Shown here piece after piece: positions 5,483-64,000 of a stretch of 64,000 nt of DNA. This stretch comes from Ferrovibrio sp. GTDB lineage: Bacteria > Pseudomonadota > Alphaproteobacteria > Ferrovibrionales > Ferrovibrionaceae. The number at the start of each line of letters is the position of its first letter. Position 1 is the stretch's first letter. Both the position numbers and the translations under genes were made by a program. The notes under the pieces are model-generated. The model saw nothing but the letters and a program-made list of their open reading frames with translations. It was not told where the DNA came from and ran no database searches. Where the stretch lies: positions 62,001 to 126,000 of the forward strand of contig JAGOQS010000001.1 of assembly GCA_017991315.1 (NCBI GenBank). The letters run 5' to 3'.

Positions 5483-5638
5483 GTAAAAAAGCTGGTGTTG
5501 TTTTACGGCCAGGCGCGCCAAATCAGGGCTGCGCGGCCATTTGAGGCTTGGCACTGCGGCACGCTTTCGCTAAGCTGATATATAAGATGCCACAGGGCAT
5601 AACGAACAAAAAAGCTTGCAGGGAGTAGGGACCAGATC

Positions 5639-6712
5639 ATGGCCAGCGTGACGGTAAAGCAGGTTCGCAAGAAATACGGCGCCCTCGAGGTGATCCGGGG
5701 CATCGACGTGGCCATTCCCGATGGTGAATTCGTCGTGCTGGTCGGCCCGTCCGGCTGCGGCAAGTCCACCCTGCTGCGCATGATCGCCGGCCTGGAAGCG
5801 ATCACCGACGGCACCATCAGCATCGGCGACGCGGTGGTGAACGATGTGCCGCCGAAGGACCGCGATATCGCCATGGTGTTCCAGAATTACGCGCTCTATC
5901 CGCATATGACGGTGCGCGACAATATGGGCTTCTCGCTGAAACTGCGGAAAGCCGACAAGAGCGAGATCGACAGCCGTGTCGCCACCGCTGCCGGCATTCT
6001 TGGATTGGGCCAGTATCTCGACCGCTACCCGAAGCAGCTTTCCGGCGGCCAGCGCCAGCGCGTTGCCATGGGCCGCGCCATCGTGCGCAATCCGCAGGTC
6101 TTTTTGTTCGACGAGCCGCTGTCCAACCTCGATGCCAAGCTGCGCGTGCAGATGCGTACCGAGATCAAGGCTTTGCACCAGCAGCTCAAGACCACCTCGA
6201 TCTACGTGACCCATGACCAGATCGAGGCCATGACCATGGCTGACCGCATCGTGGTGATGCACGATGGCATCGTCGAACAGATCGGCTCGCCGCTCGAACT
6301 CTACGACACCCCGGCCAACCTTTTCGTCGCCGGTTTCATCGGCTCGCCGGCGATCAACCTGATCCAGGGCACGTTGCGCCGCGAGGGCGGTCGCGCCTGG
6401 GTCGCCACCGGCGCCGGCATCGACCTGCCGCTTGGCCCCAATGCCGTGGGCCAGGATGGCCAGAGCGTGGTCTATGGCGTGCGGCCGGAGCATCTTTCCC
6501 CCGCCAGCAGTGGCGGCCTGCCGGTGAAGGTGGAAGTGGTGGAGCCGACCGGCGCCAACACTTTCGTCTATGCCACGCTCGCCGGCGCCCAGGTCTGCGG
6601 CGTATTCGCCGAACGCACCGGCTATGCGCCGGGCGCCAGCATGCACTTCCTGCCACAGCTTGATCGCGTGCATCTGTTCGATGCCGGCAGCGGCAACCGC
6701 CTGGTGGCCTGA
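5639..6712 (+). CDS. Sugar ABC transporter ATP-binding protein (UgpC/MalK type)
   Basis: 357 residues. Residues 1-235 are the nucleotide-binding domain with Walker A GPSGCGKS (36-43), LSGGQRQR signature, [11 protein letters not shown] Walker B and the TSIYVTHDQ switch His. The rest is the OB-fold regulatory TOBE domain of the MalK/UgpC class, which powers carbohydrate importers and often serves several of them. The GGGAGTAGGG stretch upstream gives a strong ribosome site. No permease or substrate-binding protein gene is next to it, so its membrane partners must lie elsewhere. Placement among sugar-acid genes suggests uptake of a sugar acid or oligosaccharide. Confidence 0.9.
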
Positions 6713-6744
6713 GTGTATGGCCTGAGTGTATGGCCTGAGCCTAT
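6706..6744 (+). repeat. Three 13-bp tandem units spanning the ABC ATPase stop codon
   Basis: The unit GGCCTGAGTGTAT occurs twice exactly and a third time with two changes. The first copy contains the stop codon of the ATPase gene, and each later copy repeats the TGA. The array ends just before the dgoK start, so copy number would change the spacing between the two genes. Confidence 0.85.
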
Positions 6745-6756
6745 GGTCTGCGCGCA

Positions 6757-7629
6757 TTGATCACCGTCGATTGGGGCAGCACCGGCTTCCGCGCCTGGCG
6801 GCTTGATGCCGAGGGCCGGGTGCTGGAGCGCCGTTCCGCGCCGCTCGGCATCACGCAGCTTGAAGCCGGCGAACATGGCCCGGCCCTGCAAAGCCAGGTC
6901 GGCGACTGGATCGGTGCGGGCGAAAACCGCATCCTGGCCTCGGGCATGATCGGCAGCCGCAATGGTTGGGTCGAGATGCCCTATATCGACTGCCCGGCAG
7001 GCCTTGCCGATATAGCAGGGGCCGTGCGGCGCATCGCGTGGGAAGGCGATGCCGAGCTTATGTTCTGCCCCGGTCTCTCCTGCCGCGATGCGGAGGGCGT
7101 ACCCGATGTGATACGCGGCGAGGAAATGCAGGTTTTCGGCGTGGCTGACGAGAATGGCAATGCCGATTTCTGCCTGCCCGGCACTCATAGCAAGGCGGTG
7201 ACGCTGCGGGCCGGTCGTATCACGGGCTTCGCCACCTATTTCACCGGCGAACTCTACGCCCTGCTGCGCAGCCATGGCCTGCTTTCCGGCCTGTTGCAGA
7301 GCGAAACCCAGCCGGAGACCAAGGCTTTCGCCGAAGGCGTGCAGCGCAGCGGCGAGGGCGGCGGCCTGCTGCATCATCTTTTCGGCGTGCGTGCCCGTGG
7401 CCTGTTCGCTGAACTATCCGGCCCGGCCGCCAGCGCCTATCTTTCCGGCATGCTGATCGGCCATGAATTGCGCGGCCATGCGCCCGCCGCCCGCCTGCTG
7501 CTGGTCGGCGAACAGGCGCTCTGCCTGCGCTATGCCGATGCCGCCCGCCTGCTCGGCCGGCATGTCGAAATCGCCCCCATCGATGCCGCCGCGCGCGGTC
7601 TTCACCGTTTGAGCAAGCTGCTGCCATGA
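6757..7629 (+). CDS. dgoK: 2-dehydro-3-deoxygalactonokinase
   Basis: 290 residues, the normal length for DgoK. It opens with the actin-fold phosphate loop (VDWGSTGFRAW) and carries the family segments GMIGSRNGWVE, LPGTHSKAV and FTGELYALLRSHG. The enzyme phosphorylates 2-keto-3-deoxygalactonate with ATP, the penultimate step of the De Ley-Doudoroff galactonate pathway. A TTG start at 6757 is chosen because the conserved ITVDWGS begins immediately after it and no in-frame ATG precedes it before a stop. The gene overlaps dgoA by four bases (ATGA), implying translational coupling. Confidence 0.92.
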   Translation: MITVDWGSTGFRAWRLDAEGRVLERRSAPLGITQLEAGEHGPALQSQVGDWIGAGENRILASGMIGSRNGWVEMPYIDCPAGLADIAGAVRRIAWEGDAELMFCPGLSCRDAEGVPDVIRGEEMQVFGVADENGNADFCLPGTHSKAVTLRAGRITGFATYFTGELYALLRSHGLLSGLLQSETQPETKAFAEGVQRSGEGGGLLHHLFGVRARGLFAELSGPAASAYLSGMLIGHELRGHAPAARLLLVGEQALCLRYADAARLLGRHVEIAPIDAAARGLHRLSKLLP

Positions 7630-8252
7630 ACCTGACCGACGCCCTGAAAGCCGCGCCGCTGATCGCCATCCTGCGCGGTGTGCAGCCCGATGAAGTGCTC
7701 AGAATCGGCGATGCGCTCTATGCCGCCGGCTTCCGCATCATCGAAGTGCCGCTGAATTCACCGCGCCCGCTGGAAAGCATCCAGCTTCTGGCCGAGCATT
7801 TCGGGCCTGAGGCGCTGATCGGTGCCGGCACGGTGCTGAACCTGGCGCAGATGGAGGCGGTGGCCTTGAGCGGCGGCCGGCTGATCGTGATGCCGCATGG
7901 CGATATCAATATCGTGCAAGCGGCAAGGCAGCGCGGCCTGACCGTGCTGCCGGGTTTCGCCACGCCGACGGAAGCCTTCGCCGCGATCAATGCTGGCGCT
8001 CATGGCTTGAAGCTGTTTCCGGCTGAAGCCGCCAGCCCGGCGGTGCTGAAAAGCCTGCGCGCCGTGCTGCCGCCGGCCCTGCCGGTGCTGCCCGTCGGCG
8101 GTATCGGCGCCGACAATATGGCCCCCTGGATCGCCGCCGGCGCCAGTGGCTTCGGGCTCGGTTCCTCGCTTTACAAGCCGGGTTTCACGGCAGCGGAAGT
8201 AAGCCAGCGCGCCCATGCCTGCATTGCGGCGTGGCGCGCGGGTCGGGGTTGA
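7626..8252 (+). CDS. dgoA: 2-dehydro-3-deoxy-6-phosphogalactonate aldolase
   Basis: 208 residues of the class I KDPG/KDPGal aldolase family. Visible catalytic parts are Glu40 in FRIIEVPLNSP, the GAGTVL phosphate-binding strand and the Schiff-base Lys129 in GLKLFPAEA. It cleaves KDPGal to pyruvate and glyceraldehyde-3-phosphate, completing the pathway begun by the dehydratases and DgoK. The VPLNSP sequence, rather than the VTLRT of KDPG aldolase (Eda), favours the galactonate branch. It is coupled to dgoK by a four-base overlap. Confidence 0.92.
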   Translation: MNLTDALKAAPLIAILRGVQPDEVLRIGDALYAAGFRIIEVPLNSPRPLESIQLLAEHFGPEALIGAGTVLNLAQMEAVALSGGRLIVMPHGDINIVQAARQRGLTVLPGFATPTEAFAAINAGAHGLKLFPAEAASPAVLKSLRAVLPPALPVLPVGGIGADNMAPWIAAGASGFGLGSSLYKPGFTAAEVSQRAHACIAAWRAGRG

Positions 8253-47465: not shown

Positions 47466-48017
47466 ATGTCGGATTGGTTCCTGGGTGAAATCAGGATTTT
47501 TTCCTTCACGAACATCCCTGCCGGCTGGCATATCTGCGATGGCAGCACGCTGCCCGTGCAAGGCAATCAGGCGCTATTTAGCCTAATCGGCAATACGTTC
47601 GGCGGAGATAACGTCAACTTCAACCTGCCCAACCTGCAGGGCCGCGCCATGGTGCATATGTATGGCACGGGCAGCGGCATGAAGCCCAATGTTGGCAACA
47701 CCGGCGGCAGCATAGGTGTCACGCTCAGCCAGGCGCAGATACCGGCTCACAATCATATTGTAGCCGCGGTTTCGGGCAGCGCGACGACTGCCAACCCGAC
47801 GAGCAACCTGCTGGCGACCAGCGCCATGGGGCAACCGAACCCACAAGCGCCCAGTGCGCCGCTCGTATACGCGCCGCAGGCAGGCAATCAACCGGTTGCC
47901 CTTGAGTCGACGACAATCGCCAGTGAAGGGGGCTCGCAGCCGCATGAAAACCGTCAGCCCTACATGGCCTTGGTCTGCTGTATCGCGCTGACCGGCATCT
48001 ACCCGCCGCGGCCCTGA
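47466..48017 (+). CDS. Phage tail collar-domain protein 1
   Basis: 183 residues of the tail-collar (microcystin-dependent MdpB) family. It opens LGEIRIFSFTNIPAGWHICDG, has LPNLQGRAMVHM and repeated-strand GSATTANPTSN, and closes PHENRQPYMALVCCIALTGIYPPRP. GGGGGAG precedes the start. It is the first of three tandem paralogues at 28- and 12-base spacing. No other phage structural gene is nearby, so this is a domesticated or stand-alone cluster. Confidence 0.9.
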   Translation: MSDWFLGEIRIFSFTNIPAGWHICDGSTLPVQGNQALFSLIGNTFGGDNVNFNLPNLQGRAMVHMYGTGSGMKPNVGNTGGSIGVTLSQAQIPAHNHIVAAVSGSATTANPTSNLLATSAMGQPNPQAPSAPLVYAPQAGNQPVALESTTIASEGGSQPHENRQPYMALVCCIALTGIYPPRP

Positions 48018-48045
48018 AATCCCCTGCCACATAGGAGCCTGCCCC

Positions 48046-48591
48046 ATGGCGGAAGCCTTCCTCGGTGAAATCCGGTTGTTTGCCAGCAATTATGCGCCGA
48101 CCGACTGGCTGCCCTGCAATGGGCAGCTTCTGTCCATCTCGCAATACCAGGCCCTGTATTCGGTTATCGGGACCACGTATGGCGGGAATGGACAGACCAA
48201 TTTTGCCCTGCCGAACCTACAGGGACGGCTGGTCATCGGCACCGGCACCTATACCAACCCGCCGGATCCGGTCACCAGCTATGCCGTGGGCAACCAGGGC
48301 GGTGTGATCCAGGTCGTGTTGACCGATGCGACCATGCCGGCGCATGGCCATAGTTTCCAGGTGGTCAATGTTGAGGGCAATACCGCCGCTCCCAGCCCGG
48401 CAGTAATGCTGGCCGACACGCCGGATACCCAGCCGATGTATATGCCGAAAACCACCGGCACGGTGCGGGCCTTCGATCCAACGGCCCTCTCGCTCGAGGG
48501 TGGCGGCCAGCCGCATGAAAACCGCATGCCCGCCACAGCGATGACGTACATGATCTGCACGGTCGGGGTGTACCCGACCCCCAGCAATTAA
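48046..48591 (+). CDS. Phage tail collar-domain protein 2
   Basis: 181 residues, a paralogue of the preceding gene with LGEIRLFASNYAPTDWLPCNG at the start, FALPNLQGRLVIG mid-domain and PHENRMPATAMTYMICTVGVYP at the end. The variable middle and conserved ends are typical of tail-fibre tip proteins. TAGGAG precedes the start. Function in the cell is not established; surface display or secreted appendage use is possible. Confidence 0.88.
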   Translation: MAEAFLGEIRLFASNYAPTDWLPCNGQLLSISQYQALYSVIGTTYGGNGQTNFALPNLQGRLVIGTGTYTNPPDPVTSYAVGNQGGVIQVVLTDATMPAHGHSFQVVNVEGNTAAPSPAVMLADTPDTQPMYMPKTTGTVRAFDPTALSLEGGGQPHENRMPATAMTYMICTVGVYPTPSN

Positions 48592-48603
48592 GGGAGCGCC
48601 GCC

Positions 48604-49173
48604 ATGGATGCCTTCTACGGTGAAATCAGGGCGTTTCCCTACCAGTTCTGTCCCTGGGATTGGGAGGAATGTAACGGCCAGGAGCTGCAAGTTCAGCAAT
48701 TTCAGGCGCTCTATGCCGTCATCGGCAACCTGTATGGCGGCACGCCTGGTCAAACTTTCAAGCTGCCGGATTTGCGCGGCCAGGCGGCGATGCATTTCGG
48801 CACCTACATCAACCAGCAGGCAAAACCACCTGAGTCGGCGGCCTACACCTGTGCGGAAAGCAGCGGCGTCGATACGGTTACGCTGCAATACACGGAAATG
48901 GCGGCCCACTACCATACCCTGCAAACCATTCCCACCCAGACGCGGCTGACCGCTCCCAGTTCAAGCGCTTTGATCGGCCCGCCCGCCTTCAGGCTCAAGG
49001 CGGGGAACAACTACACCTATTCGCTTTTCAGCACTGCCACTGCGGATACCACTCTGGCTGCGAACTCGCTGACCCCGGTCGGCTCCGGTGCCGCGCATGA
49101 CAATCATCAGCCCTTCCTGGTGATCCGCTACTGCATGTGCGTGAACGGCTGGTGGCCGCCAAGGCCGAGCTGA
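48604..49173 (+). CDS. Phage tail collar-domain protein 3
   Basis: 189 residues, the most divergent of the three paralogues: YGEIRAFPYQFCPWDWEECNG, FKLPDLRGQAAMHFG and AHDNHQPFLVIRYCMCVNGWWPPRPS. It has extra cysteines (PWDWEECNG, YCMCVNG) not shared by its neighbours. GGGAGCG lies before the ATG. The GNAT gene start is inside its last 37 bases, so all four genes are translationally linked. Confidence 0.88.
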   Translation: MDAFYGEIRAFPYQFCPWDWEECNGQELQVQQFQALYAVIGNLYGGTPGQTFKLPDLRGQAAMHFGTYINQQAKPPESAAYTCAESSGVDTVTLQYTEMAAHYHTLQTIPTQTRLTAPSSSALIGPPAFRLKAGNNYTYSLFSTATADTTLAANSLTPVGSGAAHDNHQPFLVIRYCMCVNGWWPPRPS

Positions 49174-49874: not shown

Positions 49875-49949
49875 TGGAGCGGGCGATGAGATTCGAACTC
49901 ACGACCCCAACCTTGGCAAGGTTGTGCTCTACCCCTGAGCTACGCCCGC
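49875..49949 (-). tRNA. tRNA-Gly(GCC)
   Basis: 75 bases including an encoded CCA. Acceptor GCGGGCG/CGCCCGC, anticodon GCC in CTTGCCAAG, T-loop GTTCGAATC. Standard cloverleaf. Confidence 0.97.
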
Positions 49950-50235: not shown

Positions 50236-50311
50236 GTCCCCATCGTCTAGAGGCCCAGGACGACGCCCTCTCACGGCGTAAACCGGGGTTCGAATCCCCG
50301 TGGGGACGCCA
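50236..50311 (+). tRNA. tRNA-Glu(CTC)
   Basis: 76 bases with encoded CCA. Acceptor GTCCCCA/TGGGGAC, anticodon CTC in CCCTCTCAC, T-arm CGGGGTTCGAATCCCCG. Base composition and gene type change directly after it, and an integrase lies at the right edge, so its 3' end is the likely attachment site of the island. Confidence 0.97.
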
Positions 50312-50419
50312 CTTTCCAATAATCCTTGAGATTCAATAGCTTGCAAGGTGGCGTGATTGCCCCTTTTCAGCGTCAAACGTAGCAAGTTGCCGTAGCAGAG
50401 CCAAGGCCAATTGTGGCGA

Positions 50420-52717: not shown

Positions 52718-53896
52718 TCATACCTTGCCCTTGCTCATGCTGTGGGCGAACTTCCTGAAAGCGCGGTCAACAATGCGGCCGAGTTCCTTATGTGCCACGA
52801 TGCTGTACGCTTTGGTTGCCAGGGAATAATGCCGGGCACCATCGCTGTCAGTCGGCCTCTTACTCATCGCGGCACTTCCCACCTTCAGTCCGCCCAGGGT
52901 GACGCCACGCTTCCATATCTCACGGTCAACGACAGCCCACACCCCTGCGGCATGGAAATCGGCGGCCTCTCTGGCCACGAAGATTGTGCTGATCCGGCCA
53001 CCACTTTTCATCATTTCCGGATTTCTGACCACGGGGCAGCGGAACCGAAAGTGCCGGGATAGGGTTCGCAGCTTGTCGCGGTCTTGCAGGGAGGCAATTG
53101 TCGTCAGCCCGGCCTTCGCCAGAACAACCCCTTTTATCCTCGCCTCGATCCGAACGCACCGTTTTCTGGAGGGTAGCGGCGCAGCACCCGCCTTCCATCG
53201 GTGGTCACTGATCTTGTGGATGACCATATAGTTGAGGTCGCTTTCGCGAGCGCCCAAATACATGGTTGCCTTCGGATCGATCCTGCGAAAATGCACTCGC
53301 CTATCGTGCGGCAGGCTGCACGTCTTCCATGATAGCCTAGCAAACACGGTATTGCGGAAAAACCAGCGCATGCCGCCATGGCCTTGTGTGATTTCCGGAT
53401 CGACTAAAAGATGGCGCGACAGGCAATCGAGGAGCTTGTGCCGCTCTATGTGATCTTCTTCATCGGTGCCAGGTTTGCTGAGGTGGGCATCAAGGGCGAC
53501 ATGGAGTTCATAAACGGGAGGGAGGTCGCCATCTGGAAACCACCGTTCCAGGATGCCCCGAAGCTTCCGCAGCACCGAGGGTGATACATCCTGTATGGTC
53601 AGCCCGGAATTGCTCAGCGGATGCGTTTTTTTCTCAGTGCTGAAGTCACTCGAAGATCGAACCGAGACGCCAAGCTGCTCTTGCAGTTCGGCGACCAGAA
53701 GCCGCAGCTTGATCGGGCAGCCGATCAGCGCAAGGTCGAGGGTCAGCGTGTCGATCCCAACGCTGAAGCGAGCCTGCTTGAAATTGTAGGGAATGCTAAG
53801 GGCGAGGCCCCGCTTACTCTTGTGTGCGCCAGATACCGGGTGCGCAGCAACTCCCGTCGGCAGCCACTCGGCCACCAGACCAGGGGAGCCGAACAT
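52718..53896 (-). CDS. Island protein of unknown function, possibly replication-initiation related
   Basis: 392 residues. No named family is certain. A segment at about 205-260, ATMYLGARESDLNYMVIHK followed by VRIEARIKG, resembles the pattern YLGSR..S...R.YDK...R.E.R.KG of plasmid Rep_trans initiators, and the mature body is basic and mixed alpha/beta. The replication link is weak inference. GGTGAG ahead of the ATG is a fair ribosome site. Its location in an integrated island with a recombinase is consistent with a mobile-element role. Confidence 0.5.
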   Translation of the reverse strand: MFGSPGLVAEWLPTGVAAHPVSGAHKSKRGLALSIPYNFKQARFSVGIDTLTLDLALIGCPIKLRLLVAELQEQLGVSVRSSSDFSTEKKTHPLSNSGLTIQDVSPSVLRKLRGILERWFPDGDLPPVYELHVALDAHLSKPGTDEEDHIERHKLLDCLSRHLLVDPEITQGHGGMRWFFRNTVFARLSWKTCSLPHDRRVHFRRIDPKATMYLGARESDLNYMVIHKISDHRWKAGAAPLPSRKRCVRIEARIKGVVLAKAGLTTIASLQDRDKLRTLSRHFRFRCPVVRNPEMMKSGGRISTIFVAREAADFHAAGVWAVVDREIWKRGVTLGGLKVGSAAMSKRPTDSDGARHYSLATKAYSIVAHKELGRIVDRAFRKFAHSMSKGKV

Positions 53897-54542: not shown

Positions 54543-55232
54543 ATGACCCAGCCCACCCGTCAAATCGTCGTCTACGCCCGCGTCAGCACCGAGCGGCAGG
54601 GACGCTCAGGGCTGGGGCTGGAAGCGCAGATGGAGACATGCAGCCGTTTCGCCGGGGCTCACGGCTACTGTATCGCCAGCCAATACGTCGAAACTGAGAC
54701 GGGCAAGGGTGCGGATGCCCTGCTCCGCCGTCCCCAACTTTCAGCGGCGCTTGCTGATGCCCGCAAGCGGGGCTGCCCGATCCTGGTGGCGAAGCTCGAC
54801 CGTCTGAGCCGTGACGTGCATTTCATCTCCGGCTTGATGGCTAACCGGGTGCCGTTCGTCGTTGCCGAGCTAGGCCCCGAGGTCGATCCATTCATGCTGC
54901 ATGTCTATGCCGCCCTGGCGGAGAAAGAGCGCAAGCTGATCAGCGAGCGGACGAAGGCTGCGTTGGCACAGAAGAAGGCTCAAGGGGCAAAGCTGGGCAA
55001 CCGTACGAACCTGGCTGAAGCCAGGGCCAAGGGTGCGGCTGCGAATGCCGAAGCTGCGGCAGCTTTCGCTGCGAACGTGCTGCCGGTGATCGAAAGCATC
55101 CGGGCGTCTGGTGCGACGACGTTGAGGCAGATTGCCGAGGTGCTGAACCAACGGGGGGTGAAGACCGTGCGGGGTGGAAAATGGTACGCAATGAGTGTGC
55201 TGAATTTGATGACCCAAAGTGCTTCAAGATGA
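54543..55232 (+). CDS. Serine recombinase (resolvase/invertase family)
   Basis: 229 residues. The catalytic domain has Ser15 in [10 protein letters not shown], the [10 protein letters not shown] motif, and [20 protein letters not shown] helix-turn-helix end ([20 protein letters not shown]) recognises the site. It cuts DNA through a 5'-phosphoserine. AGGAG precedes the ATG. As part of an island it could be a resolvase or a regulator of inversion; no paired inverted sites are seen apart from the adjacent palindrome. Confidence 0.9.
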
Positions 55233-55393: not shown

Positions 55394-58312
55394 ATGGCTC
55401 CGTCCTTTGGCAGCAAAGCCAACCCGCAACAGCTTGAGGCGATCCGAGCAACAAAAGGGCCGGTGCTGATTATCGCAGGCCCAGGATCAGGCAAGACATT
55501 CACACTGGTTGAGCGCATCGTCTATCTGATCAAGGAGGAAGCGATCGCCCCAGAATCTCTTTTTGTCGTTACCTTCACCGAGAAAGCAGCCCGAGAACTC
55601 ACAACCAGAATTTCAAATCGTCTCTCGGAGCTAGGCATCAAGTTCAATCTGAATGAAATGTACCTCGGAACATTTCATTCAGTCTGCTTGAGGCTTTTGG
55701 AGGACTACAGGGAATACACGCGCCTCAAGCGCAGCTACACGCTGTTCGATCAGTTCGATCAACAATATTTCCTTTACCAGAAGATCAACGAGTTTCGACC
55801 TCTGCCCGATGCGCAACTGGTTATGGGCGATGACCAGAAGGGCCGTTGGGCTCAATCCGAAGAGCTGTTGAAGTGGCTCAACAAGGTCAGTGAAGAGGCG
55901 CTGGACGTTGCTGCCTTGACGAAGGCAAAAGAATTGGAAGTACGTGCCCTTGCAGCTTGCTACCAGCGCTATCAGGAACTGCTCAACGAAAGCAACAGCC
56001 TGGACTTCTCGGGCATCCAGCTTGAAGCGCTGCACCTCCTTGAGCAGCACCCCGAGGTATTGGAGGAACTGCGCCAGAAGCTCGTGTACCTAATGGTAGA
56101 TGAGTATCAGGATACGAACACTATCCAGGAACGGATACTCCTTCTCCTTGCTGGAAAACAGGCCAATCTTTGTGTCGTCGGTGATGACGATCAGGGACTA
56201 TATCGTTTTCGTGGTGCCACCATCCGAAACATCCTTGAGTTCCCGAATCTGTTCAAGAAAGCCGCTTGCAAACGGGTGACGCTTGTAACGAACTACCGTT
56301 CCCATCCGGACGTCATACGTTTCTACAACGAGTGGATGGACGCTCAAAATTGGACTGACGGAGACCAAACATTTCGTTTTGAGAAAAGCATCATACCGCG
56401 TAAGGCGACGTTTCCTAAGACCCCTACGGTGCTGCGGATTTCGGCTACTGACGAGTCCGATGAAAATGCCAAATGGCATGCAGAGGTATTCCGCTTCCTG
56501 AATACGCTCCAGAAAAGCGGTAAGCTTAAAGACTGGAACCAAATTGCCTTCCTATTTCGCTCTGTCAGGAACGAGCGAGTTGTCAATCTCGCCCGGTTTC
56601 TAGAGAACAAAGGCATCCCGGTATACTCCCCCCGCTCGAATATGTTCTTCGACCGGGAGGAAGTGCGCCTGATTATTGGGGCACTGATCTTTCTCTTCCC
56701 TCAGTTCCCAAAAATCCGCCAATGGGCAGAAGGCGTTCATCTGGATATATGGGACTATTACGACCAAGAGTGCTTCAGGGCATTCACGAATGAGCTACGT
56801 AAGCCAGAGAACAAGCGCCTGCTCGATTGGGCGCGCCCCCTTGCCAAGCGACATATGGTGCTGGCTCAGAACACAGACTACGCTTTCTCGGGGCTATTCT
56901 ATCAACTTCTCCAATTCCCATTGTTCTCCCGATATCTTGACGAGAAGACACTGCTCGGCGTGGACAAGGGCAGGGCGTCACGGAACCTCGCGACCCTCTC
57001 CACGCTGCTTGCAAAGTTCGAGTATCTGCATTTCATCAACGTGCTCAGCACGGACTGGCTCGAAAAAAACCTGCGCGACCTATTCAACCAATTCCTCCGC
57101 TTTCTTTACGAGGGTGGTATAGACGAATATGAGGATGACACGGAGTACGCACCAAAGGGCTGCGTCTCCTTCCTCACCATTCACCAGTCGAAGGGGCTGG
57201 AATTTCCGGTCGTCGTGTGTGGCTCGCTTGAAGCAGTGCCGCGTAAGCAGCATACGGCACTCGATGAGCTTCTTGAGGCTGGTGGCTACCTCTCCAAGCC
57301 CCGTTTCGAGCCAGTCGAGAAGGTCAAGTTTTTCGATTTTTGGCGTCTGTTCTATACCGCATTCTCCCGCGCGCAGAATCTTCTGGTTTTGGCTGCACAA
57401 GAGCGCCACAGCCGAGGTCTGGGGAGGTCGCCCTCGAAGTACTTCGCGGATTTTTTCAACGCCTTACCTAATTGGCGCGATCCAGCCTTCAAGCTGTCAC
57501 TGTTGACCTTTGAGCCGGTCAAGGAGATCAACCTCAAGCGGGAGTACTCCTTCACCTCCCATATCACGGTATTCGAGAGCTGCGCCGAGCAGTACCGCTT
57601 CTTCAAGGAGCTGGATTTTGCCCCGATCCGCGTCAGCCCTATGTTGTTCGGCTCACTCGTGCATCAGACAATTGAGGACATCCACAAGTCTGTGCTGCGG
57701 GGAGAGGAGCACGCCGTCACCCGCGAGGCTATCCGGGGCTGGTTTTCCACCAACTACGCCCTCCTCTCGAAGAAGGAGCGCGTCTATCTGGCTCCCAGTT
57801 CGCAACAGGCGGCACTGAACCAGGTACTCCGGTACTACGAACGCGAGCAGGGACGCTGGCATCGCATCAAGGAGGCTGAGGTCGAAATCTCGTTGGTTAA
57901 GGACCAGTACATCCTCAAGGGCAATGTTGACCTGATCCGAGGGGAGCGCGACACCGTTGAAATTGTAGACTTCAAGTCCGAGAAGAAACCCGACCTGGAG
58001 AAAGACCGGGAGCGACTTAAGCAGTATCAGCGTCAGCTCGAGGTCTATGCGCACCTAGTGGAAGAGCGGACCGGCCAGACGGTCAGCCGTATGCACCTCT
58101 ATTACACGGGTGAGGAAGGCGGCAACCCCTACGTCAGCTTTAACAAGGACGACCGGGCGATTGGCAAGACCATTGCTCGGTTCGATGAAATTGTCGGGCG
58201 GATTGAGGGCCAGGACTTCCGGATACAGGCGCGCCCTACTCGGCTCTGCACGGATTGCGACATGCGCGCCTATTGCGATAATAAAGACTGGAAGTTTCGG
58301 GAGGCCAGATGA
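55394..58312 (+). CDS. UvrD-like SF1 helicase fused to Cas4/AddB-like Fe-S nuclease
   Basis: 972 residues. The SF1 helicase (about 1-690) has Walker A AGPGSGKT (28-35), DEYQD (236-240), YRFRG, TNYRSHPDVI, TIHQSKGLE and YTAFSRA. A PD-(D/E)XK nuclease (about 715-972) follows with His757, Asp846 (GNVDLI), Asp859-x-Lys861 (VDFK), plus a four-cysteine set, Cys730, Cys952, Cys955 and Cys961 (CTDCDMRAYC), as in Cas4 and AddB. It should unwind and degrade DNA. The stop overlaps the methyltransferase start by four bases, making it part of an R-M-like operon. Confidence 0.88.
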   Translation: MAPSFGSKANPQQLEAIRATKGPVLIIAGPGSGKTFTLVERIVYLIKEEAIAPESLFVVTFTEKAARELTTRISNRLSELGIKFNLNEMYLGTFHSVCLRLLEDYREYTRLKRSYTLFDQFDQQYFLYQKINEFRPLPDAQLVMGDDQKGRWAQSEELLKWLNKVSEEALDVAALTKAKELEVRALAACYQRYQELLNESNSLDFSGIQLEALHLLEQHPEVLEELRQKLVYLMVDEYQDTNTIQERILLLLAGKQANLCVVGDDDQGLYRFRGATIRNILEFPNLFKKAACKRVTLVTNYRSHPDVIRFYNEWMDAQNWTDGDQTFRFEKSIIPRKATFPKTPTVLRISATDESDENAKWHAEVFRFLNTLQKSGKLKDWNQIAFLFRSVRNERVVNLARFLENKGIPVYSPRSNMFFDREEVRLIIGALIFLFPQFPKIRQWAEGVHLDIWDYYDQECFRAFTNELRKPENKRLLDWARPLAKRHMVLAQNTDYAFSGLFYQLLQFPLFSRYLDEKTLLGVDKGRASRNLATLSTLLAKFEYLHFINVLSTDWLEKNLRDLFNQFLRFLYEGGIDEYEDDTEYAPKGCVSFLTIHQSKGLEFPVVVCGSLEAVPRKQHTALDELLEAGGYLSKPRFEPVEKVKFFDFWRLFYTAFSRAQNLLVLAAQERHSRGLGRSPSKYFADFFNALPNWRDPAFKLSLLTFEPVKEINLKREYSFTSHITVFESCAEQYRFFKELDFAPIRVSPMLFGSLVHQTIEDIHKSVLRGEEHAVTREAIRGWFSTNYALLSKKERVYLAPSSQQAALNQVLRYYEREQGRWHRIKEAEVEISLVKDQYILKGNVDLIRGERDTVEIVDFKSEKKPDLEKDRERLKQYQRQLEVYAHLVEERTGQTVSRMHLYYTGEEGGNPYVSFNKDDRAIGKTIARFDEIVGRIEGQDFRIQARPTRLCTDCDMRAYCDNKDWKFREAR

Positions 58313-60669
58313 GGGGGCTTAAGACATACATTGTAGGAGTAGCCTCGACGGCACTTTTGCGTCAGATAGCTGAAGACTTCGAACTGGAGATCGGCGACCG
58401 TCGGAAACGCGGTGACTTGGAACGGGCAATCACTTCGGCGCGACGCTGCAAGCCGGAAGTGTTGCTCAGTCTCCTAACAGAGCAAGAGGTCAAACAGGTA
58501 TGTGATGCGGCAGGCATCGAAGTCAAAGGGCGCAAGAACGCGTTGATCGAGTATCTACTCAGGGGTCAATCACCGAATGGTGATGTGCCGTCAGGAAAAC
58601 TACGTGTAGTGCCGCCGCTACGCCCTCCTATTATTCTACTAAGATCAGGAAGACCTTCCGCTATGAACGACAAAACTATCTCTCAAGCTAACCTCGCGCT
58701 TCCCGAATCAACGGCCGACACGATCGCGGTGGAGAAGTACGAATTCGAGCCCATCAAGGGCTATCCGATGCTTAACTGGCGCGGTAAGCGCCCTTTCACC
58801 TCAACACAGTATTATCCAGCCCAGCTCAAGGAGGTGTATGGCGAGGAGGTCGATGGCTGGCGAAACAAGATTTTCTGGGGGGACAATCTCCAGGTAATGA
58901 GCAATTTGCTCAAGAAGTTTCGAGGGAAAGTAGATCTAATATACATAGACCCCCCTTTTGACTCAAAAGCTGACTATAAAAAGATAATTGAACTTCGGAA
59001 GAAACGAGAAAAATCTGAGTATGGTGCATTTGAAGAAAAGCAGTATACCGATATCTGGACTAACGATGAGTATCTCCAATTCATTTATGAGCGACTTGTT
59101 CTTTGCAAAGAATTGCTCTCGTCAGAGGGCAGCATATATGTACATCTCAACCATGAGAAAGTTCACCTAGTAAGGTGCTTGATGGACGAGATATTTGGAT
59201 CATCGCATTTTCGTAACGACATAGTTTGGAAGAGGGGGCCAGGGAAGGCGCATCCAGAGTATTTTGGGCGGGTAAAAGATACGATCCTTTTCTATACGAA
59301 GTCGGATGAATATTGCTGGAACAAGCTGCACTCGTCCGTGTCTGAAGAATATAAAGCGTCGTTTCAGAAGGAAGATAAACGGGGGCCTTATGTTACGCAG
59401 CCGCTTCACAGCGGCAAGCCAGCCAAACAAGTTCCCACCTGGAAGGGCGTGAAGCCGCCGGAAGGGCGTGGCTGGGCATACAAAATTGAAACGCTCGACA
59501 AATTCGAGGCGGAAGGTCGGATCGAATGGAGTAGCGAAGGCGTTCCACGCCTAAAGCGTTATCTCGATGAGGTCGAAGGCACCGTAATTCAGGACGTCTG
59601 GGATGATATCATTGCTATAGAACCCGAAATCATTGGTGAATTTCTGGAGTTCATTGGGCAGCCCGAGCAGGTTGATGTTTGGGATAATATTTCTCCTGTG
59701 TTGTCTCGCTCTGGTGCATTCTTAAATTATCCGACACAAAAACCAGAGGCGCTTCTGGAACGCATAATTTCTGCTTCAAGCAAGAGAGGCGGCTTAGTGT
59801 TCGATTGCTTTATGGGGTCTGGTACGACGCAAGCCGTAGCAATGAAACTTGGGCGCCGTTTTATTGGTGCCGATATTAATTTAGGGGCCATCCAAACTAC
59901 CACTAAACGTCTGATTAAAATTGCTGCTGATCTCTGCGACAAGAAGCTTGATATAACCATAGAGCCATACACCGGCATCGAGGTCTATAACGTCAATCAC
60001 TACGACATCTTCCGTAATCCAATTCAAGCAAAAGACCTGCTGATTGAGGCGCTAGAAATTCAGAAGTTGGAAATGACTTCAGTTTTCGACGGGGAGAAAG
60101 ATGGCCGCATGGTGAAGATCATGCCGATCAACCGGATTTCCACACGTGCCGACCTTAACGAATTGATCGCGGGCTTCGACAATAAAGCTTGGGAGCGTCG
60201 TCAGAACGAGAGTCCGACACGCCCGGTCGAAAAGATTCTCCTCGTCTGCATGGGACATGAGCCCGACCTTAAGGCCCAACTCGAATTTGCCGCTAAGCCC
60301 TTCAAGATCGACGTAGAGGTAGTCGATATCTTGCGCGATAAGGCCAATCTGGAATTCAAGCGAGACGCGCAAGCCAAGGTAGTGGTCAAGAAGGCTGAGC
60401 TAGTTGTCGAGCGCTTTTACCCCATGAGCCTGCTGCAAAAGCTCTCTTTGCAAAAGGAAGGGGTGAAAGATTGGCGCGAACTGGTGGAGAGTATTCTGAT
60501 CGACTGGAACTATGACGGAGCTGTGTTGCAGCCCGCCGTGGTAGACATCCCTGATAAGAATGAGCTAGTTCAAGGCCGCTATGCCGTCCCCGCTGATGCC
60601 GGAACGATCCGCGTAAAGATCACGGACCTGCTTTCCGAATCGTGGGAAGGGAGTGTAACAAATGGCTAG
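58309..60669 (+). CDS. Type III-like DNA methyltransferase (Mod) with SAP-like N-terminus
   Basis: 786 residues. The N-terminal 1-90 carries a SAP-like DNA-binding motif (VKQVCDAAGIEVKGRKNALIEYLL). The beta-class N6-adenine/N4-cytosine methyltransferase follows with catalytic DPPF (214-217) before the SAM motif FMGSGTT (501-507). The C-terminal 150 residues are unassigned. The start is the ATG overlapping the helicase gene (ATGA); an internal ATG at 58663 would drop the SAP part. It overlaps the Res-like gene by 8 bases. Methylation of a self-marking site is inferred. Confidence 0.9.
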   Translation: MRGLKTYIVGVASTALLRQIAEDFELEIGDRRKRGDLERAITSARRCKPEVLLSLLTEQEVKQVCDAAGIEVKGRKNALIEYLLRGQSPNGDVPSGKLRVVPPLRPPIILLRSGRPSAMNDKTISQANLALPESTADTIAVEKYEFEPIKGYPMLNWRGKRPFTSTQYYPAQLKEVYGEEVDGWRNKIFWGDNLQVMSNLLKKFRGKVDLIYIDPPFDSKADYKKIIELRKKREKSEYGAFEEKQYTDIWTNDEYLQFIYERLVLCKELLSSEGSIYVHLNHEKVHLVRCLMDEIFGSSHFRNDIVWKRGPGKAHPEYFGRVKDTILFYTKSDEYCWNKLHSSVSEEYKASFQKEDKRGPYVTQPLHSGKPAKQVPTWKGVKPPEGRGWAYKIETLDKFEAEGRIEWSSEGVPRLKRYLDEVEGTVIQDVWDDIIAIEPEIIGEFLEFIGQPEQVDVWDNISPVLSRSGAFLNYPTQKPEALLERIISASSKRGGLVFDCFMGSGTTQAVAMKLGRRFIGADINLGAIQTTTKRLIKIAADLCDKKLDITIEPYTGIEVYNVNHYDIFRNPIQAKDLLIEALEIQKLEMTSVFDGEKDGRMVKIMPINRISTRADLNELIAGFDNKAWERRQNESPTRPVEKILLVCMGHEPDLKAQLEFAAKPFKIDVEVVDILRDKANLEFKRDAQAKVVVKKAELVVERFYPMSLLQKLSLQKEGVKDWRELVESILIDWNYDGAVLQPAVVDIPDKNELVQGRYAVPADAGTIRVKITDLLSESWEGSVTNG

Positions 60670-63334
60670 GCGGACGCGTGCCACGAGCGCCTCGCTCGAT
60701 TTCGCCTTCTTTCGCTTTCTCTGGGAGTTCTATCGTGGTAATCGCGGAACGATCCGCAGGCACTACAAGGAGCTAACCCGGAAGTTTCTCGACTTCAACG
60801 ACCCTGAGCGCAATCCGAAGGCATTCCTGCGCCAGCCCCAGTTCGAGGCATTAGAGATTTATGTCTTTCTGAAAGAGTTTCTAGATAACGCGAAGGTGGA
60901 GAATATCTTTCAGGGCTGGTTCGAGAAGAAAGGCCGTTTCCTCGACCGTGCCGAGGGTGGAATCATCAGCGGGACCGGCGCAGGGCAACTCTTCGACCTG
61001 GTAACAAAGGAGCAGTACCAGGCCGTCTTCTCGGCCATGCGCCATAACTCACGCGCCTACCCAAACTATATTTTCGCCCTGACTATGGGGACCGGCAAAA
61101 CACTCCTTATGGCTACCTGCATATTCTATGAGTTCCTGCTGGGTAATAAATTCGCAAAGGACCAGCGCTATTGCCATAATGCGCTGATTTTCGCCCCGGA
61201 CAAGACGGTCCTTCAAACCATCATCACAGACATTCAGGCGTTTGATTTCGCAAAGGTGGTCCCGCCGGAGTACGTCAACTTCCTTACGGCTCATCTGCGA
61301 CTGCATTACCTGGAAGAAGCCGGCACGGCGCTCAGCCTTCTCGACCGCTCGCGCTTCAACATTATCGTTTCAAATACGCAGAAGATCATCCTGAAGCGGC
61401 AGCACAAGGAGAAGGCGCCCCTTGATCAGTTGTTCAGCGCTGCGGCTGACACAATCCCGGCCGAAGGTGTCTATGCCGATGCGGCTGACCTTTATGCGTA
61501 TGACCAGCCGGAAGAGGAGGCCGAACTCTCTACCAATCAGCGTTTCGAGAAGCTCTGTCGCCTTGAACAGCTCGGCATATACGTGGACGAGGCTCACCAC
61601 GTCTTCGGCGCCTCCCTTGCCAAGGACATGGGTATTGGCACCAAGGAGAATGACACTAGCCTGCGCACCACAATCGATACATTGGCAGCCAAGCTCGAAA
61701 AGGCCGGAACCCGTGTCGTCGCCTGCTACAACTACACCGGAACGCCTTATGTGGGTCGAGATGTCCTACCCGAGGTCGTCTATGCCTACGGCCTCAAAGA
61801 GGCTATCGACAAAGGCTTTCTTAAGAAAGTCGTTCTCCACGGCTATTCCAACCCTCGCACTGGCGAATTTGTTGATATTGCCGTCGAGCGTTTCCTGGCC
61901 GAAACGAAAGACCTGCGTCCCGAGGGGATGCTCCCCAAGCTGGCTTTCTTCGGTGCGACTATCGAGGAGGTGACCAAGGAGCTTCGGCCTGCCGTAGAGA
62001 AAGCGCTAGCGAAACGAGGCATCCCGACGACGCGCATTCTCATCAATGTTGGCGACGACAAAGTTACCACGAACGATGACCTTCGCGAGTTCAGACAACT
62101 CGACACCGAAGCTTCCGAGAAGCAGTTCATTCTACTGGTAAATAAGGGCCGCGAGGGCTGGAACTGTCGTTCCCTCTTCGGTGTCGGGCTCTTCCGCCAA
62201 CCCAAATCCAAGGTGTTCGTCCTGCAGGCAACGATGAGGTGTTTGCGTGCCATCGACCAGGCCCAGCACACCGGTCAAGTTTTCCTCTCCAACGACAACC
62301 TGGATATTCTGAATGACGAACTCCAGCAGAATTTCCGGATCACAGTCGAGGAGCTCCAGAACGTGGCCAAGGACAAGGAGCGGGTCCAAGTCCGGGTAGT
62401 CGAGCCGCCGGTCATGATCACCCTAGTACGTGTGCGTAAGCAGTATACTATGCGTGAGAAGACGCTGGCGCCGGGCCAGGCTCTCGGCCTCGACCGCTCC
62501 CAAAAGGAGGCTTGGAATACTCTGGTCGAGAAGTACCGCCTCATCGAAACTCAGCAGGAAGGATTGACGGCTGCACATGCAGCCGCTGCCAAGGCGAGCC
62601 GCACATTCGATCTGACGGAGCGCCGTGAAAAGCAGACCTTCTCACCCCTCACGCTCGTGGCTGAAGTCGCCCGCTACCTAAACCTTAGTCCGTTGGACAT
62701 CGCAGACATCCTGGAAAGCACCAAGGAAAAGACGGACGAACTTGTGGCCATGGTTAACGAGTTCAATGAGCTTCTCTACGATGAGATTATCCCGCGATTG
62801 TTCCGGCAGCTCTATGACCTCGATGAAACAGAGAAGACGGAGAAGCATGAGGTCGAATTGATCAAGGTCCCGCCTTCCGGCTATTACGAGGTCACAGCGG
62901 CGAAGGACAAGATCGTCCGCATTGGCGACGTAAACTCGGATGAGCGCCTAAAGAGCTTCCACCTAGACACCTACTGCTTCGATTCCAATCCGGAATCCCA
63001 AATTTTCTGGGACCTTCTGAGGGAAAAGCGTGTTCGGAAGCTCTACTTCACCGGCATGTTGACGCACGGTCAATCCGACTTCTTCATTCAGTACATCGAT
63101 CCCGATACCCATGCTGTGCGCAGCTACTATCCTGACTTTCTCTTCCTCCGCGAAGAACCGGATGGCACTGAAAAGTATGTGATAGTCGAGGTCAAAGCTG
63201 ACAATCAGATTGAAGAAAAAGTTGTCCAGGCCAAAAAGGAATTCGCCCAACAACTGGCCATAGCCAGCGGTATGGAATATCGCCTCATCAAAGCTACTGA
63301 TGCCAGCAATCGGCATTACAGGATGCTTTTGTAG
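60662..63334 (+). CDS. Type III-like Res subunit: DEAH helicase with C-terminal endonuclease
   Basis: 890 residues. SF2 helicase with Walker A MGTGKT (142-147), DEAH (309-312) and the NKGREGWNC/QATMRCLRA region near 500-535. A PD-(D/E)XK nuclease lies at the end: PD824-825 and Glu843-Val-Lys845 (EVK) in VIVEVKADN. This is the Res architecture of type III restriction enzymes: ATP-dependent translocation plus cleavage. Translation overlaps the methyltransferase gene. Convergent with the integrase 25 bases away. Confidence 0.88.
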   Translation: MARRTRATSASLDFAFFRFLWEFYRGNRGTIRRHYKELTRKFLDFNDPERNPKAFLRQPQFEALEIYVFLKEFLDNAKVENIFQGWFEKKGRFLDRAEGGIISGTGAGQLFDLVTKEQYQAVFSAMRHNSRAYPNYIFALTMGTGKTLLMATCIFYEFLLGNKFAKDQRYCHNALIFAPDKTVLQTIITDIQAFDFAKVVPPEYVNFLTAHLRLHYLEEAGTALSLLDRSRFNIIVSNTQKIILKRQHKEKAPLDQLFSAAADTIPAEGVYADAADLYAYDQPEEEAELSTNQRFEKLCRLEQLGIYVDEAHHVFGASLAKDMGIGTKENDTSLRTTIDTLAAKLEKAGTRVVACYNYTGTPYVGRDVLPEVVYAYGLKEAIDKGFLKKVVLHGYSNPRTGEFVDIAVERFLAETKDLRPEGMLPKLAFFGATIEEVTKELRPAVEKALAKRGIPTTRILINVGDDKVTTNDDLREFRQLDTEASEKQFILLVNKGREGWNCRSLFGVGLFRQPKSKVFVLQATMRCLRAIDQAQHTGQVFLSNDNLDILNDELQQNFRITVEELQNVAKDKERVQVRVVEPPVMITLVRVRKQYTMREKTLAPGQALGLDRSQKEAWNTLVEKYRLIETQQEGLTAAHAAAAKASRTFDLTERREKQTFSPLTLVAEVARYLNLSPLDIADILESTKEKTDELVAMVNEFNELLYDEIIPRLFRQLYDLDETEKTEKHEVELIKVPPSGYYEVTAAKDKIVRIGDVNSDERLKSFHLDTYCFDSNPESQIFWDLLREKRVRKLYFTGMLTHGQSDFFIQYIDPDTHAVRSYYPDFLFLREEPDGTEKYVIVEVKADNQIEEKVVQAKKEFAQQLAIASGMEYRLIKATDASNRHYRMLL

Positions 63335-63359: not shown

Positions 63360-64000
63360 TCAGATGCTGCCTTTTGTACACACCTCAGTATTGTCTTGTG
63401 CGGGGCACCTTGGGGGCAATTTTAACCCCGGATACCGGATTCGCTTTACCGCCTCATATAGCCGCTTCATCGGGACATGGTCGCCGCGATATATTTCGCT
63501 GGAGTGTTCGTCTGTGCGCCCGCCGAGGAGGAAGCGGAGTTTGTAATCCGAGATGGATTCCAGCATCGCCTGCTCGAAGGTGTGGCGGAAGCTGTGGAAG
63601 ACGAGGCGTGGGGATTTCAGGCCCACGCTGTCGAGGAAGCGGGCGAACCATTTGCCGAAGGGATCAAATCTGCCCGAGGCGCCAGGTTCGGCATCGAACA
63701 GCATTGCCTTTCCTGCTTTGCGGCGCCGCTCAACCATGTCGAGGAAGCCGATGCGCTCAAGCTCTGGATGGATGGGTATGTCGCGGGCGGATGACTCATT
63801 CTTGACGCTCTTCTGCGGCAAGCTCTCGTCGTCTTCGTCGGGCTGGTCGTTGATCGAGATGCACCAGATGCCTTCCCTCTGGACGATATCGCTAACGCGA
63901 AGCTGGCATATTTCGGCGCGGCGACCGCCTGTGTAGAGGGCGATGATCGGTGCCCAATAGCGTTCGCAATCCAGGCGGTGGTTGCCCGGTTCTTTCCAGT
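63360..64000 (-). CDS. Tyrosine recombinase/integrase (partial, 5' end off window)
   Basis: The catalytic half of a tyrosine integrase read from the right edge to a TGA at 63360. Catalytic Arg is in ALYTGGRRAEICQL; HSFRHTF holds the His-x-x-Arg pair; the nucleophile Tyr is in SEIYRGD. These fit the phage/island integrase group. It most likely inserted the element at the tRNA-Glu gene. The DNA-binding N-terminus lies beyond the window, and no internal frameshift is seen. Confidence 0.88.
   Translation of the reverse strand, partial: WKEPGNHRLDCERYWAPIIALYTGGRRAEICQLRVSDIVQREGIWCISINDQPDEDDESLPQKSVKNESSARDIPIHPELERIGFLDMVERRRKAGKAMLFDAEPGASGRFDPFGKWFARFLDSVGLKSPRLVFHSFRHTFEQAMLESISDYKLRFLLGGRTDEHSSEIYRGDHVPMKRLYEAVKRIRYPGLKLPPRCPAQDNTEVCTKGSI

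Follow-up and report, generated by a model that had tools for sequence, protein, structure and literature searches.

What does a helicase-nuclease do when its gene is joined to the two genes of a type III-like restriction-modification (R-M) system? The question was raised by a three-gene operon in a stretch of 64,000 nucleotides from Ferrovibrio sp. (assembly GCA_017991315.1, contig JAGOQS010000001.1, positions 62,001 to 126,000), referred to here as the window. The operon encodes a UvrD-like helicase fused to a Cas4/AddB-type nuclease (UvrD-Cas4, or UvrD), a DNA methyltransferase (Mod) and a DEAH helicase with a nuclease end (Res). An initial annotation made from the DNA letters had proposed this trio as a candidate new defence system. 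The answer that we consider fairly probable is a three-subunit, ATP-dependent, type III-like R-M system on a small integrative island. Mod and Res would find unmodified DNA and UvrD-Cas4 would degrade it from the break. Judged from its sequence, the operon probably serves to methylate, and so mark, the DNA of its own cell and to destroy invading DNA that lacks the mark, by means of two motor-nucleases.

All three open reading frames (ORFs) were intact and the overlaps noted between them were exact, 4 bases for UvrD/Mod and 8 bases for Mod/Res (Table 1). UvrD-Cas4 matched PF00580 in its N-terminal part (1.9e-76) and the PF12705 (PDDEXK_1) nuclease in its C-terminal part (1.2e-21), which bears out the two domains first read there. 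Mod matched the N6_N4 methyltransferase family PF01555 (5.2e-48). The order of its motifs, read in the sequence, is that of the beta class with DPPF at 214 followed by FxGxG at 501. The target-recognition region (TRD) is variable and lies at about residues 285-470, and the C-terminal domain is conserved. Mod had been described as a SAP-tagged beta-class enzyme. The class and an N-terminal extension of ~118 residues are real; the SAP tag is weak, as the match to PF02037 (E=0.0036) scored 17.3 bits against a Pfam cutoff of 23.9. The extension was present in four of the five relatives translated for it (L021, L064, L065 and L079; absent in L025), and the majority of aligned Mod relatives begin near window Mod residue 119, without it. 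Res matched the PF04851 ResIII motor (2.2e-5; 24.9 bits, cutoff 22.5) and the TnsA-like nuclease PF08722 (4.8e-9), in agreement with the DEAH helicase and PD-(D/E)XK end first described.

Table 1. Features of the operon and its island in the window, and genes found inside the operons of relatives (L numbers denote loci of relatives).
Feature	Position	Strand	Remarks
UvrD-Cas4 (UvrD-type superfamily 1 (SF1) helicase + Cas4/AddB-type iron-sulfur (Fe-S)-pattern PD-(D/E)XK nuclease)	55394..58312	+	972 aa
Mod (beta-class DNA methyltransferase, probably N6-adenine)	58309..60669	+	786 aa
Res (DEAH superfamily 2 (SF2) motor + C-terminal TnsA-like PD-(D/E)XK nuclease)	60662..63334	+	890 aa
tRNA-Glu(CTC), into which the island is integrated	50236..50311	+	ARAGORN
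Attachment (att) repeat, 23 bp, at the tRNA-Glu 3' end	50295..50317	+	direct repeat with identical second copy
Second att copy	65320-65342 (continued window coordinates); contig C2:127320-127342		1,320-1,342 bases past the window end
Serine recombinase with a Resolvase N-terminal domain, immediately upstream of the operon	54543..55232	+	PF00239 9.7e-26
Tyrosine integrase, C-terminal part	63360..64000	-	PF00589; ORF of up to 633 aa that runs past the window end
Inserted OLD-type ATPase-TOPRIM	L074:4055-6019		
Inserted SNase	L105:5492-6250		
Inserted CHAT and HNH	L094:1420-3615 and 5572-7977		
Inserted PLD	L123:6717-7991		OLD gene before Mod too
Inserted PIN	L102:7572-7988		
Inserted DUF3800	L096:3886-4707		
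Second methyltransferase ORF inside the operon	L104		

Active sites were checked in full-length ORFs (80 UvrD, 98 Res and 91 Mod, the window and plasmid loci included), in alignments from which 14 duplicate loci, listed by hand, had been excluded. UvrD residues K34, D236, E237, H757, D846, D859 and K861 were identical in 80/80 ORFs and the Fe-S-type cysteines 730, 952, 955 and 961 were kept in all of them. The checked catalytic positions were invariant save T35 (S in 2 UvrD), F217 (Y in 2 Mod) and G505 (A in 1 Mod). Both nucleases and both motors keep their active sites across the UvrD and Res sets, with one T/S exchange.

As far as sequence can tell, the locus has the anatomy of a type III enzyme. 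The mod and res genes are adjacent, the beta-class Mod carries DPP(F/Y) and FxGxG, and Res combines an SF2 DEAH motor with a C-terminal PD-(D/E)XK nuclease. The recognition region of Mod appears to be exchangeable. PF12564 (TypeIII_RM_meth), a common rather than defining mark of the class, had no match in the window Mod and was present in the Mod of one relative (L146). Type III enzymes act on two inversely oriented sites and cut 25-27 bp from one of them, and their modification is by hemimethylation. The AlphaFold model of Res had a mean predicted local distance difference test score (pLDDT) of 76.8 and a predicted template modelling score (pTM) of 0.58. Its first PDB match by E-value was the EcoP15I Res (4zcf, 1.6e-11), with RadD and further SF2 motors next in the ranking. 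The Mod model (pLDDT 70.1, pTM 0.50) matched the EcoP15I Mod at 5.7e-21, and the Mod sequence matched the same protein at 1.3e-32. EcoP15I, the first fold match of both models, shares with the window a beta-class Mod with a separate recognition region and an SF2 Res ending in a PD-(D/E)XK domain, and differs in that the nuclease end of the window Res is TnsA-like. To our knowledge EcoP15I has no third UvrD-Cas4 subunit. The Pfam domains and the EcoP15I matches together uphold the type III-like Mod/Res engine with an added SF1 helicase-nuclease that had been proposed.

The trio was found in many other genomes. A Res profile search of the GTDB collection (84,980 species) gave 297 relatives, of which the best 80 loci were kept; this sample leans to close kin and 53/80 were Pseudomonadota. 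Res was present in 10 phyla among these 80 loci. Complete, full-length UvrD, Mod and Res genes in the same order and on one strand were found in 62 of the 80, from eight phyla, and both intergenic gaps (match to match) were at most 130 nt in 57 of the 62. Twelve loci either ran into the end of a contig or flank or had a partial UvrD (L055, L062, L069, L086, L089, L092, L094, L097, L099, L103, L107 and L118). All 14 plasmid records with Res at a coverage of at least 80% also matched UvrD and Mod, the UvrD gene being split in KJ645709. The order UvrD-Mod-Res was seen in 9/9 plasmids whose annotation was opened, one of which has two extra genes between UvrD and Mod. Twelve further plasmid records had a partial Res match only, and 11 of these were from Enterococcus. 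The initial annotation had staked its claim on UvrD being conserved with Mod/Res, and in these genome and plasmid loci it was. Remains of the operon were also seen on cyanobacterial plasmids. The Annamia dubia plasmid (L142) has an intact UvrD, with Mod reduced to 67 residues, and is apparently a decayed trio. UvrD is in pieces on a Geminocystis plasmid (L143) and on a Nostoc plasmid (L145), where it adjoins an IS1380 transposase; these are decayed copies.

Among viral contigs all three genes were matched in 12 of 14 Mod-selected loci (exceptions L032 and L034). Two of these loci, L025 and L026, share identical match coordinates and look like one sequence. The trio was present in 14 of 17 Res-selected viral loci, the others being cut (L125), in fragments (L138) or left with a piece of UvrD (L140). 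Twelve of these 17 contigs repeat those of the Mod-selected set, and the plasmid and viral rows include near-copies. A UvrD-selected viral scan (best 80 of 204) found Mod and Res in 14/14 rows at least 46% identical to the window UvrD, largely the same contigs as in the other two sets. The full-length viral UvrD rows at 35-44% identity (L183, L184, L187 and L188) had no match to the window-type Res. With Mod as query in 60 relatives only distant methyltransferases were found, which was uninformative for the trio.

A scan of 398 genomes across the phylum, with two first-look candidates scored per genome, found a strong Res in two genomes and UvrD (E<=1e-110) in the same two, the window genome and G272. 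Mod sits between UvrD and Res in G272. In a third genome Res was distant (266 bits) and UvrD was not matched at E<=1e-110. One of the two positive genomes is that of the window, which leaves one independent genome from the scan. The window genome was chosen for having the trio, so the computed 1.3e-5 is unfair and was set aside in favour of the fair figure of 1 in 397. The system is rare per genome and spread over many phyla, and the conservation of gene order across phyla exceeds chance. Chance co-location of the three genes was rejected on the conserved trio in genome, plasmid and viral loci.

The three genes were also compared in their histories, using a matrix of pairwise identities from 72 loci with all three genes full-length (identical pairs such as L021/L079 included). 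The identities of UvrD and Res had a Mantel rho of 0.966 and those of UvrD and the C-terminal half of Mod a rho of 0.869, with 0/500 permutations as high in either case. Rho was 0.019 for UvrD and the Mod TRD (207/500 permutations as high) and 0.042 for Res and the TRD (138/500). There were 700 pairs with UvrD more than 75% and Res more than 70% identical, and in 90% of them the TRD was less than 40% identical. The sharpest case was L024 compared with L046 (UvrD 98%, Res 99%, TRD 26%). This is the pattern expected of an R-M system that exchanges its specificity and keeps its machinery, and it would place UvrD with the machinery.

The following order of events is proposed. Mod would methylate its site on the host's own DNA. 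Mod and Res would bind unmethylated sites, and the SF2 motor of Res would move or slide along the DNA. The TnsA-like PD-(D/E)XK domain of Res would then nick or cut it. UvrD-Cas4 would load at the nick or end and unwind the DNA, and its Fe-S-type nuclease would degrade a strand, so that restriction would end in degradation and not in a single re-ligatable cut. UvrD-type helicases start well from nicks and nucleases of the RecB/AddB family follow SF1 motors. The hybrid of R-M and RecBCD that had been suggested is plausible and unproven as a mechanism.

UvrD-Cas4 also has other partners. A quick UvrD tree was built with the Shimodaira-Hasegawa-like approximate likelihood ratio test (SH-aLRT) as sole support and no mixture model, and L147, L187 and L033 form long branches in it. 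It was relied on for two points only: a group of L042, L144 and L146 (SH-aLRT 100) and the mixing of hosts of different classes across the tree. Within the group, the Enterococcus UvrD (L042) adjoins a window-type Mod/Res, that of a Priestia plasmid (L144) adjoins a divergent methyltransferase and motor, and that of a Peribacillus plasmid (L146), where the gene is split and the C-terminal ORF was used, adjoins a PF12564-bearing Mod and a ResIII motor. One UvrD clade beside different Mod/Res pairs is as expected if UvrD-Cas4 were a plug-in arm. On two viral contigs (L184:9007-18212 and L188:8962-18450) UvrD-Cas4 relatives of 35-36% identity stand directly before genes that match TmtA of Tiamat. 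The PADLOC TmtA match was 1510 bits in L184 and 231 bits in L188, and an N6_N4 methyltransferase follows. In L188 an HTH/M78 gene lies between the TmtA-matching gene and the methyltransferase. The arrangement is possibly a Tiamat variant; it is like the window in the UvrD and the methyltransferase and differs in having TmtA in place of the Res motor. In a Fusobacterium locus (L147:6998-13675) SbcD-like and SbcC-like genes follow a UvrD-Cas4 relative of 31% identity, a context that suggests a repair ancestor or cousin of UvrD-Cas4. The UvrD relative of L187 is in a phage-like context.

In some operons genes are inserted between UvrD, Mod and Res, and they encode different nuclease, ATPase or protease types (Table 1). 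These may be optional effectors for which the operon was repeatedly used as a landing place. The operon seems to be built in a more modular way than a simple restriction system. A broader proposal is put forward tentatively. UvrD-Cas4 could be a general plug-in arm for DNA degradation that serves several unrelated methylation-marked engines (window-type, canonical type III, divergent Mod/Res, and Tiamat-type TmtA with a methyltransferase). The window-type operon would then be a three-subunit R-M class into which toxic or nuclease cargo (OLD, SNase, CHAT, HNH, PLD, PIN and DUF3800) was repeatedly inserted as second-line effectors. Such a shared degradation arm would link type III-like R-M, Tiamat and repair nucleases. 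If this is so, single cut against processive destruction becomes a question that can be tested directly, as does whether phages that block RecBCD escape.

Several observations weigh against a three-subunit type III-like system. The fold match of Res to EcoP15I had an identity of 12% and low TM-scores (0.29/0.40) on a model of modest pTM, the Res sequence had no match in the PDB at E<=1, and the type III Res profile PF04851 matched the window Res weakly. Six of the 80 Res loci had no adjacent intact UvrD in the visible DNA (L048, L096, L100, L101, L102 and L123; about 0.85 kb of upstream DNA was visible in L100). Short C-terminal pieces of UvrD stand directly before Mod in L048:5904-6062 and L140:5835-6068, where UvrD was lost and Mod kept. 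The distant Mod/Res pairs L044 and L153 had no UvrD match in the stretch examined. UvrD may therefore be helpful rather than essential. There are also UvrD homologues without a working Mod/Res (L142, L187). Finally, linked genes share their history, so that co-inheritance is support and not proof of a physical complex.

Three other explanations were weighed. UvrD-Cas4 might protect the host by repairing or resecting the chromosome breaks that Mod/Res causes by self-restriction, with no part in the attack on invaders. The Mod/Res loci without an adjacent UvrD and the Fusobacterium relative in its row of SbcD- and SbcC-like repair genes favour this, as do two suggestions made for UvrD-Cas4 by Hudaiberdiev et al. 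2017 (PMC5704561), a role in recombination like that of RecB/AddB and a partial redundancy with RecB. The links of UvrD-Cas4 to several methylation-marked defence engines, the Tiamat type included, are explained equally well or better by an effector arm. RecBCD or AddAB is already present in most bacteria, and a host-protecting role is judged unlikely. Somewhat more doubtful still is that Mod/Res serves as a platform for recognition and loading and that UvrD-Cas4 is the main nuclease, with Res only nicking to load it and neither working alone. This would account for the tight co-inheritance of UvrD and Res, for active sites conserved in both, and for the TnsA-like nuclease of Res, as TnsA cleaves a single strand in Tn7; the loci that have Mod and Res without an adjacent UvrD speak against it. 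That UvrD is a mere co-mobilised neighbour of an ordinary two-gene type III system has in its favour that UvrD homologues occur with other neighbours too, and it is very improbable given the trio on every one of the 14 plasmids, the UvrD-Res correlation, and loci from eight phyla in which gene order is kept and gaps are small. A type III-like system with UvrD-Cas4 as its degrading subunit is accordingly the reading retained.

The system is not new as a prediction. In Hudaiberdiev et al. 2017 (PMC5704561), UvrD-Cas4 fusions have type III Mod and Res as their commonest neighbours and Dcm/Vsr as another context, and a defence role was predicted. The window has the same context, a UvrD-like SF1 helicase fused to a pfam12705 nuclease beside Mod/Res. 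Section 8 of that article, with the legend of its Fig. 6, gives no system name, experiment, or analysis of co-inheritance or of the specificity region. From architecture we infer that the window protein belongs to the same subfamily. In the parts available of the articles consulted the trio was described in PMC5704561 and not in PMC3710099, PMC3702460, PMC7251935, PMC7522526, PMC9035990, PMC12458937 or PMC9453066. No later experiment or name for it was found in the open-licence literature searched. As the context was in print in 2017, the "new system" of the initial annotation is a published prediction, and by the literature searched the locus belongs to a described but unnamed predicted kind of system. 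The present analysis adds the quantified co-inheritance, the exchange of specificity, the inserted genes, the exact limits of the mobile element, and a UvrD clade that stands with different Mod/Res pairs. Pneumococcal ZomB, a protein with a UvrD-like and two Cas4-like domains, needs ATP to degrade duplex DNA in vitro (PMC9453066). It is a precedent by domain make-up. ARMADA type II resembles the locus in having a methyltransferase and helicases, with a UvrD-family helicase needed for defence, and differs in its PglX-like methyltransferase, its YprA-like and BrxHII-like helicases and a UvrD fused to a RelE-like domain (PMC12458937, a preprint, in the part available).

The locus was also compared with other named systems. 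The window UvrD scored the PADLOC GajB models of Gabija (195 bits over residues 9-315, the helicase part only). No GajA-like OLD/TOPRIM (AAA_15) match was found among the island ORFs searched, and here the nuclease is fused to UvrD. UvrD-Cas4 is like AddAB, AdnAB and RecBCD in that an SF1 helicase is joined to a RecB-family nuclease with an Fe-S type cysteine pattern. It scored 177 bits against the AddA equivalog cutoff of 708, 128 against the RecB cutoff of 696, and far below the cutoff of the PcrA NCBIfam model. No AddB, RecC or RecD partner was matched among the island ORFs searched. DISARM is marked by the DUF1998 protein DrmB and the PLD protein DrmC, and neither DUF1998 nor PLD had a Pfam match in the island proteins searched. 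BREX is marked by the PglZ phosphatase and the BrxC ATPase, and neither was matched in the same proteins. Among the named systems of PADLOC, UvrD matched GajB/RTasHel profiles only (best 25 of 64 families), Mod matched type II/III or orphan methyltransferase profiles only (best 25 of 61 families), and Res matched PbeA only and marginally (6.7e-4). In the profile comparison that had been called for, the PADLOC profiles recognised UvrD and Mod in generic terms only. The operon, a probable restriction system that combines two motors and two nucleases, was already predicted in print in 2017, yet the PADLOC profiles searched do not recover its Res beyond one marginal match.

The operon is carried on an island of 15,025 bp with the 23-bp direct repeat at both ends, the second copy lying just past the tyrosine integrase ORF. 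In a genome of the same species (G451) the flanks join at a single copy of the repeat, so the element is precisely absent there and was a mobile acquisition. The tRNA-Glu island bounded by an integrase that had been described is thus confirmed by the tRNA gene, the integrase, the repeat and the empty site. Recombinase or transposase genes were near the operon in four relatives among those with annotation opened. In G451 (L167) ~13 kb of other DNA lies between parts that adjoin each other around tRNA-Gly (49875-49949) in the window, and the tRNA-Gly/tRNA-Glu pair looks like an integration hotspot. An island ORF at 52718-53896 (minus strand, 392 aa) was matched by nothing in Pfam, PADLOC or NCBIfam under the thresholds applied. 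Just outside the island, window positions 47466-49173 hold three consecutive look-alike ORFs. The third, the sole one searched, matched the phage tail collar domain PF07484.

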